Source: a bacterium (GTDB taxonomy: Bacteria; Sysuimicrobiota; Sysuimicrobiia; Sysuimicrobiales; Segetimicrobiaceae). From it: a stretch of DNA of 64,000 bases. Below are positions 22,694 to 60,603 of the stretch, in pieces (positions within the stretch are counted from its first letter, which is position 1; every line of letters starts with the position of its first letter). A program made the position numbers and the translations under genes. Where the stretch lies: contig DATGFS010000030.1 of assembly GCA_035308905.1 (NCBI GenBank), forward strand, positions 1 through 64,000. Reading direction: 5' to 3'. The notes below the pieces were generated by a model that did not search any database, was not told the DNA's origin, and saw nothing but the letters and a program-made list of their open reading frames with translations.

Positions 22694-22840
22694 GCCTCCT
22701 GCCCCGTCTAACGCGGGACCTCCGGCCGCCTCTGAGCCTGCGGCGCGGGCTAAAGATGCGCCTCCTGCCCCGTCTAACGCGGGACCTCCGGCCGCTTCTG
22801 AGCCCGCGGCGCGGGCCAAAGATGCGCCTCCTGCCGGTGC
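22694..22840 (+). repeat. Tandem 66-bp repeat array between hslO and thiD
   Basis: Two complete units (22694-22759 and 22760-22825), nearly identical, and the start of a third (22826-22835). The period is exactly 66 bases, 22 codons. On the plus strand each unit is open and reads PPAPSNAGPPAASEPAARAKDA; on the minus strand it reads through as LARAAGSEAAGGPALDGAGG. Degenerate relatives lie at 1623, 6424, 7660, 8512 and 30546. This is the best preserved copy and the reference for the family. Confidence 0.9.
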
Positions 22841-55014: not shown

Positions 55015-56082
55015 TCAGCGCGTGTGGTCGAGGATCACTTTGACGGAGTCGTCCGCCGCCGCGACGAGCCGGAATCCCGCCGCGGCCTCGGACAGCCCGA
55101 GCCGGTGCGTGATCATGTCGTCGACGTGCACGCGCCCGCGCGCGATCAGCTCCAGCGCCTCGGCGTAGTCGGCCGGCGCGGCGCCGTAGGACGTCGTGAC
55201 GGTGAGGTCCGTCCGGAAGAACGTCTCGTTGAACGGGAGGGCCGGAAACGCAAACTCGGGCCCCGACGGCGCGAAAAGCATCACCGTGCCGCCGGGTTCG
55301 GCGCAGCGCAGCGCCTGGGTGATCGCCGGCCCGGCGCCCGTGCAGACAATGACGAGATCCGCGAGGCGGCCCTCGTTGGCCTCGCGCACCTGGGATGCGG
55401 GGTCCGCGCCGGGCCGGAACGCGGCGTCGGCGCCGAAGCGCGCGGCGGCGGCCAGCCGGTACTCCGAGATATCGCTCGCCAGGACGCGCCGGGCGCCGGC
55501 GGCGCGCGCGAGCTTGATGTGCAGCAGCCCGATGATCCCGCTGCCCGCGACGAACACGGTGTCGTCCTCCCGGACCGGCGCGAGGCGCTGCGCCCGCACC
55601 ACGCAGGCGAGGGGCTCCACGAAGACGGCCTGGTCGAACGACACGCCGTCCGGCAGCCGAAACACGCCGCGGTCCACGTGGATCGGACTCAGCCGGGTGT
55701 ACTCGACGAATCCCCCGGGATCGAAGTTCGTGGTGTGGAGCGTGTGGCACATCGTGTGGCGGCCGCGCCGGCAAAACCGGCAGGCGTCGCAGGGGACGTG
55801 ATGCGCCGCGGTGATGCGATCGCCGGCGCGGTAGGCGTGCACGCCGTCCCCCACCGCCGCGACCGTCCCTCCGACCTCGTGGCCGAGCACCAGCGGCGCC
55901 CGATGGCGGCGGTACCACTCCATCACGTCGCTGCCGCAGATCCCGCTGCGCTCCACGCGCATCAGGATCTCGCCGGGGCCGATCGCGGGGACCGGGCGGC
56001 GTTCGAGCCGGACGTCGCGGTTCGTATAGTAGACGGCCGCGCGCATCTGCGCGCCCGGGCGGTTAGAGCCCGGCGGCGTCAT
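55015..56082 (-). CDS. Zinc-dependent medium-chain alcohol/polyol dehydrogenase
   Basis: 355 residues. Catalytic zinc cysteine in [24 protein letters not shown], structural zinc cysteines in [20 protein letters not shown] fold [15 protein letters not shown]. Resembles sorbitol or threonine dehydrogenases. ATG at 56082 overlaps the aldolase stop; a second start at 56046 would drop a short Pro/Asn lead. The aldolase neighbour suggests sugar or polyol catabolism. Confidence 0.92.
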
Positions 56083-56894
56083 CGTCTCGCCGCGTGCTGG
56101 GCTCCCTCCGCCGCGGCGCGCCGGAACAGCGCGAAGGCGTCTTCCGGCGACGCGTCCTCGTGCACGATCGCGCGGATCGCCTTGATCATGGCGACGGGCG
56201 CGGGATGCTGCCAGATGTTGCGGCCCATGTCGACCCCGGCGGCCCCCAGGCTGATCGCGCGCGAAGTCAGCTCGAAGACGTCCATCTCCGTGTCGAGCTT
56301 CGGCCCGCCGGCCACGACCAGCGGGACGGGACAGCCCTCCACGACCTTGTCGAACCCGTCGCAGTAGTACGTCTTGACGATCTGCGCGCCCGCTTCCGCC
56401 GCGATCCGGCAGCACAGGCCGAGATAGCGGGCGTCGCGCTTCTCGAGCTCCTTGCCGACGGCCGTGACGGCCAGCACCGGCATGCCGTACTCCTGGCCTT
56501 CGCTCACGAGCGCGCCGAGGTTGAGCAGCGTCTCCCGTTCGTGCCGCGTGCCGACGAAGATCGAGAGCGCGACGGCGGCCGCGTTCAGCCGCACCGCGTC
56601 CTTCATCGTGGTCATGATGCCTTCGCCGGACAGGTCCTCGGTGAGGATGCTCGTGCCGCCGGACACCCGCAGCACGATGGGCACGGCGGCGGCCGGCGCC
56701 ACGGACGACCGCACGACGCCGCGCGTGACCATGAGCGAATCCGCGAACGGCAGCAGCGGCTCGATCGTCGTGCGGGGGACTTCGAGCTTGGAGGTCGGTC
56801 CCATGAAGTAGCCGTGATCCACGGCGAGCATGACGGTCCGGCCGGTGTCCGGCCGGATGATGCGGTTCAGCCGGTTGCGCATGCCCCAGTCCAT
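56079..56894 (-). CDS. LsrF/DhnA-family class I aldolase-like protein
   Basis: 271 residues. RTVMLAVDHGYFMGP start, the Schiff-base lysine in AQIVKTYYCDGFDKVV near residue 182, VAGGPKLDT and GAAGVDMGRNIWQHPAPV, the phosphate-binding end. LsrF is an autoinducer-2 thiolase and DhnA a fructose-bisphosphate aldolase; the MGRNIWQ ending is shared. No lsr genes nearby, so a sugar-phosphate aldolase role with the adjacent dehydrogenase is favoured. Confidence 0.9.
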   Translation of the reverse strand: MDWGMRNRLNRIIRPDTGRTVMLAVDHGYFMGPTSKLEVPRTTIEPLLPFADSLMVTRGVVRSSVAPAAAVPIVLRVSGGTSILTEDLSGEGIMTTMKDAVRLNAAAVALSIFVGTRHERETLLNLGALVSEGQEYGMPVLAVTAVGKELEKRDARYLGLCCRIAAEAGAQIVKTYYCDGFDKVVEGCPVPLVVAGGPKLDTEMDVFELTSRAISLGAAGVDMGRNIWQHPAPVAMIKAIRAIVHEDASPEDAFALFRRAAAEGAQHAARR

Positions 56895-56930
56895 GGCGCC
56901 TGCTTTCGGGCTAGAGGCCGCGCACGCCTG

Positions 56931-56969
56931 CCCCGACGCCGCGGGCGGCGGCCGCCCGCGGCGTCGGGG
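56931..56969. other. 39-nt perfect palindrome
   Basis: Arms of 19 bases (CCCCGACGCCGCGGGCGGC and its exact complement) around a single G, in the 107-bp gap between the secreted repeat-protein gene and the aldolase gene. No U-tract on either strand, so a Rho-independent terminator is not supported. It could be a REP-like element, an mRNA stabiliser, or a cruciform. Confidence 0.8.
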
Positions 56970-57001
56970 TTCGTGCCGCGAGATATCGTGCTCCCGGCGG
57001 A

Positions 57002-57388
57002 TCAGAGCGGCAGCTGCACCAGGTTGAGTTGCACGGTCGGACCTTCGGGCGGACAGGCCACACAGCTCGCCTGGGCGTTCGGCGGGCACCCCGTGCAGGC
57101 GGACGCTGCCGGCGAGGCGATCGTCGGCGTGGGATTGCGGTTGCTTATCTCAATCGTACTCAGCGGCGGCGCCGGCGAGTGGTTGATCGGGATGTGGCGC
57201 ACGGCCACACGCAGCCGCGGCGCCGGCGAGGGAGTGACCGCGACATGGTGCACGGCCGTACGCAGCGGCGGCGCCGGCGAGCGGGTGATCGGGATCTGGC
57301 GCGCGGCCGCAAAGCCGCCGGCGGGGCCGAGCGCGACTGAGGAGAGCACGGCGCACGCCACGAGGCTCGAAACGAGGAAGTGTTTCAT
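57002..57388 (-). CDS. Secreted small protein with three 17-residue repeats and CxxC pairs
   Basis: 128 residues. Sec signal peptide (HFLVSSLVACAVLSSVALG, then Ala-rich cleavage region). Then three tandem 17-residue units with consensus RxIPIxxSPAPPLRxAV, a short Asn/Pro spacer, and a tail with CTGC and CVAC that could bind metal or form disulfides. No known family. It is preceded by AAAGGGG at about seven bases and stands alone between a terminator and a palindrome, so it is probably its own transcription unit. Confidence 0.75.
   Translation of the reverse strand: MKHFLVSSLVACAVLSSVALGPAGGFAAARQIPITRSPAPPLRTAVHHVAVTPSPAPRLRVAVRHIPINHSPAPPLSTIEISNRNPTPTIASPAASACTGCPPNAQASCVACPPEGPTVQLNLVQLPL
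57162..57314 (-). repeat. Three tandem 51-bp coding repeats
   Basis: Units begin at 57162, 57213 and 57264 with an exact 51-base period (17 codons), all inside the secreted protein gene. Units 1 and 3 are closest; unit 2 has drifted. The block AGCGGCGGCGCCGGCGAG is shared, with one base changed in unit 2. Confidence 0.85.
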
Positions 57389-57441
57389 ACATCCCCTTTC
57401 GATTCGATATCGTCAATCCCGTATATCCCCAACTGCGCGGG

Positions 57442-57483
57442 AAAAACGCGGCGGGCCGGCGCGTTCCCGCGCCGGCCCGCCGC
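57442..57483 (-). terminator. Intrinsic terminator of the lytic transglycosylase gene
   Basis: Perfect 16-base stem (GCGGCGGGCCGGCGCG with its complement, loop of four) at 57448-57483, followed on the minus strand by GTTTTT at 57446-57442. It lies 20 bases after the transglycosylase stop. Confidence 0.85.
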
Positions 57484-57503
57484 GGCCGATCTGTCACGGT
57501 TGG

Positions 57504-58364
57504 CTAGACGAGGAGACCTCCAAAGATCGAGAGCACTTTCCACACGTAGGAGCGGGTCTCCGGATACGGCGGAATCCCGCCGTACTGGCGCACCGCGCCG
57601 CCGCCGGCGTTGTACGCGGCGAGCGTGAGCGGCAGCGTGTGGAACTCCGCGAGGTCGAGGCGCAGCAGTCTCGCGGCGCCCACGAGGTTCTGCCACGGAT
57701 CACGCGGATTCACGCCGAGCTCCGCGGCCGTCTGCGGCATCAGCTGACCGAGACCCAGCGCGCCGACCGGCGACACCGCGCCGGGATCGAACGCGCTCTC
57801 CACGCAGACCACCGCCGTCATCAGGCGCTGATCGACGCCTTCCTGGGTCGCGGCCTCATGAATAGCCTGGCCCTCCCACTGCGCCTGCTTCGGCATAATG
57901 TCCGGGTTCGACGCGCGGATGAACTGAGCGATGCCCCGCGAGCTGCTGGTGTCCCAGCGCCCCAGTACGCTCTTCACCGCGGTCTGCACGGTGGCGGGCT
58001 GGCCGAGGCGGCCGAGCCAAGCCAGCGCGTACCGGGCCTGCGCGGTCGAGGGGTGGAGCAAGAGCGCGAGCCGGAACCAATGGCCGGCGTGCACGTTGTC
58101 GCCGCGGGCCATCATCACCGCGCCCATCCACACGGCGGGAGTCGCGGACTCGGGCGTGCTCGCCGCAGCCTTGGCGAACGCGGTCTGCGCCTGGGCCATG
58201 TGTCCGGCCTGATAGGCCTGCCACCCGGTCTGCAGCCAGCTCTGGGCGTCCACAGGCTGGTGGAATCCGGTAAGGGCGATAAGCAGGGATACTCCGACGA
58301 GTGTGAGGCTGATGTACAGGCGGCGCCGATTGGACGGACGACCGCCGCCCACCACGTGAAACAT
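57504..58364 (-). CDS. Lytic transglycosylase with TPR-like N-terminal region
   Basis: 286 residues. An N-terminal membrane anchor (YISLTLVGVSLLIALTGF) followed by two TPR-like helical pairs (WQAYQAGHMAQAQTAFAKAA) and a C-terminal SLT domain. The catalytic glutamate is in CVESAFDPGAVSPVGALGLG, with GLGQLMPQTA and LAAYNAGGGAV. It cleaves peptidoglycan with anhydro-muramic ends, outside the membrane. GGGGGAGAAG-type site upstream of the ATG. Confidence 0.92.
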   Translation of the reverse strand: MFHVVGGGRPSNRRRLYISLTLVGVSLLIALTGFHQPVDAQSWLQTGWQAYQAGHMAQAQTAFAKAAASTPESATPAVWMGAVMMARGDNVHAGHWFRLALLLHPSTAQARYALAWLGRLGQPATVQTAVKSVLGRWDTSSSRGIAQFIRASNPDIMPKQAQWEGQAIHEAATQEGVDQRLMTAVVCVESAFDPGAVSPVGALGLGQLMPQTAAELGVNPRDPWQNLVGAARLLRLDLAEFHTLPLTLAAYNAGGGAVRQYGGIPPYPETRSYVWKVLSIFGGLLV

Positions 58365-58628
58365 GCCCTTCTCCCCCGTACGAGCGGTTTGTTACTCCCA
58401 AGAACCTAGCATGGGCCCGCAGAGTGGCACAATACTGCGAAGACCCGAGTCTTACAGGCAAAATCGGGCTGTGGCGGCTTCTCGCTGCCGGGGACGGTCC
58501 TCAAGTCATGAAGAGCACAACAGATGTTCGCCGCCCGGCCCCAGATCGCCGCACGGGTGCACCCCCGCCATCCCGCAGGCGTCCAGGGAGGCGGACGGGT
58601 GCCGGACGACCGGCCGGCTGCGTGTCCG

Positions 58629-60266
58629 CTACTTGAAGACCGAGGTTTCGATCTCCCGCGAGGTAATGAACTCGAGCAGGGCCGGGACGCCGTCATCGGT
58701 CTTCCGGACCGCCCGCTTGATCGCCGGTACGATCTCGCCCGGCTCGGTGACGCGCTCCCCGTACCCGCCGAGCGCCTGCGCCAACGCCGCGTAGTTGCCG
58801 GAGATGTCGGTGCTCCGGTACTTCTCCGTGGAGACCGGCATCACGGGCAGCTCGATGGCCATGCACGAGTTGTTCAGCAGGACCGAGAGAATCGGGATCC
58901 GCTCCCGGACCGCCGTCTCGAAGTCCATGCCGGTGAACCCGATGGCGGCGTCGCCCCAGACGTTGATGCAGAGCTTCTCAGGGGCGAAGAGCTTGGCGCC
59001 CATCGCGAGGCCGAGGCCGTAGCCGAGCTGCGTGGTCTTGCCCCAGCCGATGTAGGACAGCGGGGCCTCCACCTGCCAGAACGGCGAGAGCTGATCGCGC
59101 GGACTTCCGGCGTCGTGCGTGATGACGGTGTTGGCCACATCGACGGTCCGCAGGAGATCGCGGATCACGCGGTACGGCGACAGCGGCGTTTCGTCGGAGT
59201 TGAGTTTCGGGCTCCACTGCGCGAGCCACGCTTCGCGTCCGCTCTGGATCTCGCGGGCGACGGACGCGGCGCGGTCCTGACGGGGCGCGCGCACCCGGTC
59301 TTTGACCGCGGCGAGCAGCGCCTCCAGCACCAGCCCGGCGTCGCCGATCACCACGTGGTCGGCCGGGAGGTCTTTGTTGACGTCGGCCGCGTCGAGCGTC
59401 GCGTGGATGATTGTCTTCCCCTCCGGCATCGCGACGCCGTAGTTGGTCGTCGCGAAGCTGCAGCCGATGCCGAAGATGACGTCGCTCTTTGCGAGGAAGT
59501 CATGCACGGGTTTGGGCATGGATCGCCCGCCGGAACCGAGCGACAGCGGGTGTGTCTCGGGGAACGCGCTCTTGCCCTGAAGGCTCGTGGTGACCGGCGC
59601 GCCGAGCCACTCGGCGAGATCCTTGAGTTGGCCCCAGGCGCGCGCGTAGTGCACGCCCTGTCCCGCGTAGATCACCGGCCGGCTCGCTTCGACCAGCAGA
59701 CCGGCGATCGTCTCGATCGCCTGTGGATCGGGTCCCACCCGCACGGCCGCCGGCGGCCGGTAGTCGGCCGGTTCCGGAATATCCGAGGAGAGGACGTCGG
59801 TGGGAAACTCGATCAGCACCGGCCGGGGGCGCCCGTTGCGCACCTGGGTGAAGGCGCGGCGCATCGCCGCCGGCGCTTCCGCGGGCAGGAGCACCTGCTC
59901 GGCCCACTTCGTGATGTGCCGGTAGTTGAGGGCGGAATTGAAGTTGGGCGCGACGTTGGTGAGGCGGCGGGGATAGCCAGCCGGCAGCACGACGATCGGC
60001 GACGAGTCACCGTACGCCTGCGCGACGCCGCCGAACGAGTTCTCCGCCCCCGGTCCGTGTTGCATCGTGAACACGCCGATCCGCCGCCCGGACGACATCC
60101 GGCTCACCGCGTCCGCCATGTGGAGGCCGGTGCGTTCCTGCCGGACGATGATCGTGCGGATGTCGGCCGCCGCGGCCGCCTCGATGATCGGATTGACCGG
60201 GTAGCCGATCAGAAACTCCACGCCCTCGCGCTTCAAGATCTGAGCGACCGCCGCCGCGACCTTCAT
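58629..60266 (-). CDS. Thiamine-pyrophosphate-dependent enzyme (acetolactate synthase-like)
   Basis: 545 residues in the usual Pyr/central/PP order. N-terminal domain has the cofactor-activating glutamate in IIVRQERTGLHMADAVSRM; the central domain follows (PVIYAGQGVHYARAWGQL); the C-terminal domain carries the TPP motif GDAAIGFTGMDFETA ending LLNNSCM. Relatives include acetolactate synthase, glyoxylate carboligase and phenylpyruvate-type decarboxylases; no regulatory subunit gene is adjacent, so IlvB is uncertain. TGGAGG precedes the ATG. Confidence 0.9.
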   Translation of the reverse strand: MKVAAAVAQILKREGVEFLIGYPVNPIIEAAAAADIRTIIVRQERTGLHMADAVSRMSSGRRIGVFTMQHGPGAENSFGGVAQAYGDSSPIVVLPAGYPRRLTNVAPNFNSALNYRHITKWAEQVLLPAEAPAAMRRAFTQVRNGRPRPVLIEFPTDVLSSDIPEPADYRPPAAVRVGPDPQAIETIAGLLVEASRPVIYAGQGVHYARAWGQLKDLAEWLGAPVTTSLQGKSAFPETHPLSLGSGGRSMPKPVHDFLAKSDVIFGIGCSFATTNYGVAMPEGKTIIHATLDAADVNKDLPADHVVIGDAGLVLEALLAAVKDRVRAPRQDRAASVAREIQSGREAWLAQWSPKLNSDETPLSPYRVIRDLLRTVDVANTVITHDAGSPRDQLSPFWQVEAPLSYIGWGKTTQLGYGLGLAMGAKLFAPEKLCINVWGDAAIGFTGMDFETAVRERIPILSVLLNNSCMAIELPVMPVSTEKYRSTDISGNYAALAQALGGYGERVTEPGEIVPAIKRAVRKTDDGVPALLEFITSREIETSVFK

Positions 60267-60603
60267 CTTGGGCCTCCAGTCCGCGTGCCGGATGGTTCTC
60301 CGCAGGCAGGTTCTGGGGGGCGGCGCGCGGTTCCTCGGCGCGCGCCGCGTTCGTTGAAAGTTACGCAAATCTTCCGTCGCTACATGTACCGGCACCCAGA
60401 CCGCTTGGGGGGCCTATTCTCTCGCGCGCGATGCCGGCCGCGTATACGATGAGCCTGCTCGCAACCTTGACTAGGTGGGGGGAGGACGGGCTCGTGAAAC
60501 GACTCTTGGCCACGCCGTCCGAGGGCGACGTCTCGACACTCATCCGACTGGTGCCCGCGGCCAACCCGTCTGCGAACATCGGGGGCAGAGGAGGTCGTCT
60601 GAG
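60267..60603. other. 337-bp divergent intergenic region
   Basis: Lies between the divergent TPP-enzyme and GAF genes, so both promoters are expected here. A GC hairpin (CGGCGCGCG with CGCGCGCCG, nine-base loop) lies at about 60321-60347. I see no consensus promoter. A short plus-strand ORF (60431-60625) overlapping the GAF start is not convincing. Confidence 0.5.

Follow-up and report, generated by a model that had tools for sequence, protein, structure and literature searches.

Secreted and surface proteins with intragenic tandem repeats are a known general kind, and the small protein described here resembles them in its export, in its in-frame tandem repeats and in a repeat make-up that varies among close relatives. 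It differs from them in that the repeat unit itself changes from species to species (17 residues, 5 residues and a weak 12 residues), besides the copy number, and in being a small protein without a known adhesin domain and, as judged by eye, without a cell-wall anchor motif. A second point of comparison is the proline-rich periplasmic linker of TonB-type proteins, which is likewise Pro-rich, charged, likely extended and found in a diderm cell, whereas the protein studied here is a free-standing chain of about 100 residues in which no membrane or receptor-binding domain was found. Zinc-ribbon-like CxxC sites are a third, since the protein carries the spacing C-x2-C-x7-C-x2-C; unlike in those sites, the cysteine set is absent from its two orthologues, and there is no Pfam match above cut-off.

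The gene lies in the window, by which we mean the whole 64,000-nucleotide stretch of DNA that was analysed. Our main reading, to which we give a probability of roughly 40%, is that its product would belong to the envelope, would be disordered, cationic and rich in Pro and Ala, and would be confined to the genus and evolve by intragenic tandem duplication; as an envelope component it is probably unusual, not extraordinary. With it, a poorly known uncultured soil lineage gains a small exported protein family of its own genus, whose wider importance stays slight unless it can be shown to be expressed and to bind a partner.

The gene and its taxonomic range

The protein opens with a stretch resembling a signal peptide (MKHFLVSSLVACAVLSSVALGPAGGFAAA), which is followed, towards the C-terminus, by the three repeats of 17 residues, the anchor segment VRHIPINHSPAPPLSTIEIS, a Pro-rich linker, the CTGC-x7-CVAC segment and a hydrophobic end, VQLNLVQLPL (Table 1). 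In the following, G000 denotes the window's own genome, and G001 and G002 the two other genomes of its genus. Both of these hold a syntenic orthologue whose reading frame is uninterrupted from start to stop, at 46% identity in G002 (E 4.9e-22) and 35% in G001 (E 8.7e-8), and for every pair the alignment scores of the whole and of the mature proteins beat 1000 of 1000 shuffles (six tests). The earlier note had described a small exported orphan with repeats and named a lack of both homologues and expression, or a match to a known family, as what would count against it; the ORF on the minus strand, its orthologues, its repeats and the absence of an assignable family all agree with that description. 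The flanking genes for the TPP-type enzyme, the aldolase and the carboxylase are 86–92% identical to their counterparts in G001 and G002, and the locus is a clean case in which one exported gene falls to 35–46% and swaps its repeat unit between well-kept flanks.

Table 1. Positions of the small exported protein gene, its parts and its neighbours in the window.
Feature	Position	Strand	Basis or remark
Small exported protein gene	57388..57002	minus	ORF with ATG start, 128 aa; syntenic orthologues in 2/2 other genomes of the genus
Signal peptide, about residues 1–29 (Sec/SPase I type by eye)	57302..57388	minus	Hydrophobicity, orthologue starts
Three 51-bp (17-residue) tandem repeats	57155..57309	minus	Copy spacing, TRF, codon shuffles
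Conserved anchor VRHIPINHSPAPPLSTIEIS, residues 63–82, overlapping the last repeat copy	57143..57202	minus	Orthologue identity
CTGC-x7-CVAC segment, residues 98–112	57053..57097	minus	Sequence
Upstream block GGGGATATACGGGATTGA, candidate promoter element	57413..57430	minus	Shared with the upstream regions of both orthologues (alignment)
Terminator-like hairpin, 17 pairs then T-rich	57447..57484	minus	After the transglycosylase, upstream of the small gene
SLT lytic transglycosylase, TPR-like N-terminus	57504..58364	minus	PF01464, E 2.3e-22
Presumed TPP-type (thiamine-pyrophosphate-type) enzyme ORF, conserved upstream neighbour	58629..60395	minus	Synteny, 92% and 86%
Perfect palindrome, 19-nt arms, 1-nt spacer	56931..56969		Between the small gene and the aldolase gene
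DeoC/LacD (DhnA-type) aldolase, downstream	56079..56894	minus	Domain match; orthologues 90% and 87% identical

A profile search found strong members (E < 1e-40) in three of the 43 genomes of the order, all of one genus; 12 of the 43 gave any match at E ≤ 0.1, these three included, and the others scored no better than 0.0039. Six of the 12 genomes of the family matched at E ≤ 1, three of them strongly. With the single protein as query, 32 of 100 relatives matched at E ≤ 0.1 and, the own genome aside, only G002 and G001 fell below 1e-7. We required E < 1e-7 plus synteny for acceptance as an orthologue, because the matches at loci L007 and L011 show that composition alone gives E values of about 1e-4. 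Both were rejected as chance: the match at L007 (genome G019, E 2e-4) is on the opposite strand of a large ORF, within it, which by eye we take to be cation-exchanger-like, and that at L011 (genome G003, E 0.0047) lies inside another ORF, presumably dienelactone-hydrolase-like. These two were the weak matches opened; the others had E values of 0.0037 or worse. The other 40 order genomes searched yielded no credible orthologue, and the small gene was present at none of 80 loci (kept of 128 found) around relatives of the TPP-type enzyme. When 117 loci were searched with a profile, the three members were recovered and, besides them, a weak match at L014 (E 0.019). A search with the protein alone gave 229 pattern matches in the genome collection, and the viral collection gave 22, with no relative in either, and a viral origin was rejected on the latter result. 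Within what was searched, the small exported protein thus appears to be genus-restricted.

Pfam and NCBIfam at E ≤ 1 gave no match for the window protein, Pfam at E ≤ 5 gave nothing beyond weak matches for the three orthologues, PHROGs gave none for any of the three, and no credible match was found in the PDB. A weak PADLOC match to AbiEi (E 0.034, residues 10–46) was not taken as real. Those parts of the literature that were accessible contained no description of the protein.

Repeats, anchor and evolutionary rate

Three coding copies at an exact 51-bp period had been described for the gene, together with a common motif, xIPIxxSPAPPL. The period holds, the copies lying at 57155, 57206 and 57257 (spacing 51 and 51), and the best self-match of the gene, 59, was reached by none of 200 codon shuffles (highest 17). 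The motif fits two of the copies (RQIPITRSPAPPL and RHIPINHSPAPPL) but not the middle one, which reads HHVAVTPSPAPRL. Compared with the reference copy, the two remaining copies are 75% and 89% identical, and with a TRF score of 205 the repeat is the second strongest of 27 rows for the window. The strongest is a 66-bp tandem repeat at 22694–22835 (2.2 copies, 96% matches), which sits where two minus-strand ORFs adjoin, or close to that point; by eye, these ORFs are presumably ThiD-like and Hsp33-like.

When relatives were searched for repeat variants, as the earlier note had proposed, the unit itself was found to differ: 51 bp × 3.0 in the window, 15 bp × 7.1 in G002 (also 30 bp × 2.1) and a weak 36-bp unit in G001. 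The self-match lies beyond all 200 codon shuffles in each of the three orthologous genes, barely so in G001 (score 20 versus a shuffle maximum of 19). By eye, an HSPAxxL segment is found in one copy each in G002 and G001 and in three related copies in the window protein, and the repeats of G002 and G001 stand N-terminal to their single anchor.

The anchor, with the 20-residue consensus VRHI[AP][IV]xHSPAPxLxTxEI over the three orthologues, is the one well-conserved part of the small protein. For the pairs G000–G002, G000–G001 and G002–G001, in this order, its identity is 16/20, 13/20 and 13/20, compared with 12/25, 7/25 and 11/25 for the signal peptide, 9/33, 5/31 and 15/29 for the repeat region, where the alignment is uncertain, and 4/10, 8/10 and 5/10 for the C-terminal ten residues. 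An impression by eye that the C-terminal motif was conserved was dropped, as just 4 of 10 residues agree between the window protein and G002.

The dN/dS ratio of the small gene is 0.48–0.83, as against 0.07–0.12 for the aldolase, carboxylase and TPP-type genes and 0.22 for the transglycosylase, and its dS among the three species is approximately 0.7–1.1. Such a high ratio would fit relaxed constraint or positive selection, which three orthologues cannot separate. GC content at codon positions 1, 2 and 3 is 0.67, 0.61 and 0.85. The codon-usage score per codon is 0.052, with 0.021 for the best antisense frame and 0.279 for the transglycosylase, which itself belonged to the training set; codon usage is weak backing for the small gene as coding. 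Long spurious antisense ORFs are common in the GC-rich DNA of the window, compare a 771-aa ORF on the plus strand (56094–58409) that spans both the small gene and the transglycosylase and reaches across most of the aldolase gene.

The dN/dS values, the low codon score with its nearly equal antisense frame and the frequency of spurious ORFs would all be expected if the exported ORF were decaying or under hardly any constraint, had no function for which it is itself selected and stayed open since stops are rare in GC-rich DNA. We regard this as unlikely, however, given that a shared start, a hydrophobic N-terminus and an intact frame are seen in three species at the above dS and that the anchor has retained 13–16 of its 20 residues. 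Synteny and shuffle-beating alignments, weighed against the low codon score and the high dN/dS, mark the small exported protein as the product of a real gene, but one that is weakly constrained or fast-changing.

Export, envelope and cysteines

All three orthologues bear out the signal peptide that had been proposed: they begin with MKH, MKH and MRH, and their N-terminal hydrophobic 12-mers average 2.2–2.6, while the later chain never exceeds 1.43. In the window protein, the top 12-mer begins at residue 4 with a mean Kyte-Doolittle value of 2.6, the remainder reaching at most 1.03. Sec would export the protein and signal peptidase I would remove about 28 residues. Omp85 is encoded in the genome (116.8 bits, E 1.9e-33; as a control, the search matched in 7 of 14 named genomes), which points to an outer membrane. 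A diderm cell is therefore probable, with a product bound for the periplasm or beyond. In the accessible portions of the paper on the phylum (PMC11604079), envelope terms led to no passage on the outer membrane or cell wall. With regard to the lipobox pattern of bacterial lipoproteins, the window protein has LVAC at residues 9–12 and G002 has LAVC, while G001 has no cysteine there. A lipoprotein was rejected on the ground that a lipobox cysteine after the signal peptide is not conserved, and since the lipobox-like LVAC is confined to the window protein, lipidation seems unlikely.

The mature proteins carry net charges of +5, +7 and +8 and consist of P, A, S, T and G to 47–52%. A single-sequence AlphaFold model has almost no secondary structure and a mean pLDDT of 50, which from such a model is weak evidence for disorder; the mature chain may well be disordered. 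Under our main reading, some 100 mature residues, Pro/Ala-rich, cationic and probably unfolded, would be located in the periplasm of a diderm cell or on its surface, with the anchor consensus as the functional part. Together with the basic R/H-rich stretch that precedes it, the anchor would most likely dock on an anionic envelope component, for which peptidoglycan or an outer-membrane glycan is a candidate; cell-wall or envelope association of the protein is possible. Tandem duplication would have tripled the anchor segment in the window species, where three copies might provide higher avidity or reach, and species-specific duplications would tune length or avidity. That the anchor was re-amplified repeatedly, with a different unit in each species, as a diversifying surface ligand under pressure from phages, predators or competitors seems to us an improbable extension.

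A cationic, Pro-rich, exported, stand-alone product that evolves fast and is restricted to a genus could also be a secreted antimicrobial-like peptide aimed at competitors, its repeats and its rapid change being driven by an arms race. But the flanking genes look metabolic, with no immunity or export gene recognised among them, and no PADLOC or PHROGs match was taken as real (the AbiEi match above included), so that we consider such a role rather unlikely. Such a peptide and the little-selected ORF discussed above are the chief rivals of our main reading.

The CTGC/CVAC tail, which the earlier note had suggested might bind metal, is present in the window protein, and its spacing together with the four histidines of the mature part would suit a metal-binding peptide. 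The four cysteines are not conserved, however. The mature proteins have four cysteines in the window and two each in G002 and G001; G002 keeps the first and last and has lost the inner two (CVGA...TCSP, ACVGAPPTSQAPGPTCSPQ), and G001 has a single CAQC and is the sole relative retaining a CxxC. As the pairs are not kept, metal binding is disfavoured as a common function and the CxxC metal site was rejected as that of the family; with no Pfam metal-binding family above cut-off either, we hold a metal-binding peptide to be very unlikely. Disulfides appear more likely than a metal site, a reading based on even cysteine counts in three sequences, too few for proof.

Neighbourhood and upstream signals

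Along the locus, the gene for the TPP-type enzyme is followed by that for the transglycosylase (present at this place in G000 and G001 but not in G002), the small gene, the aldolase gene, an alcohol-dehydrogenase-like ORF and a carboxylase gene, the last two being presumed names. The small gene was said to stand alone between a terminator and a long palindrome and near a lytic transglycosylase, and it does (Table 1). In place of the palindrome, the gap between the small gene and the aldolase gene holds a different 17-nt hairpin in G002, and no hairpin of at least 8 nt was found there in G001.

Adjoining, same-oriented genes in the window and in G001 might indicate that the small protein is an accessory of the lytic transglycosylase. 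G002, however, has the small gene and no transglycosylase at the locus, and its best copy elsewhere, at 56%, corresponds to the second copies of G000 and G001. This second copy, 56% identical to that of the window, is found in all three genomes (G000:C40, L158; G001:C181, L159; G002:C69, L160), each time directly downstream of an ORF of approximately 570–630 aa, and inspection by eye of the ORFs listed around it revealed no small relative. A terminator-like hairpin also separates the two genes in the window. The transglycosylase, being gone from the locus in one relative, is not an obligate partner, and we rejected the partnership; an accessory role is very unlikely.

No sigma-70-type promoter match was found upstream of the small gene. 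Visual comparison of the upstream regions of the three orthologues yielded a block, GGGGAWATACSSKMWTGA, that has one exact occurrence in the window, upstream of the small gene; at up to three mismatches, at least one match was seen in 40 of 100 window shuffles. The shorter form, GGGGAWATACSSK, occurs once in the whole genome and therefore marks no regulon, and the block was rejected as a regulon box. It may be part of a promoter.

Lastly, relatives of the TPP-type enzyme at 62–81% identity are spread over numerous phyla (128 found, of which 80 were kept), including one 80% identical in Terrabacteria group bacterium ANGP1 (L066) and one 81% identical at L038. ANGP1 is Candidatus Segetimicrobium genomatis of the phylum Sysuimicrobiota and is tentatively the nearest named organism, other taxa such as that of L038 scoring similarly. 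For the aldolase, the best that the family's other genera offer is 26–31% identity, which is no close counterpart. It may be that this genus acquired the cluster or put it together itself.
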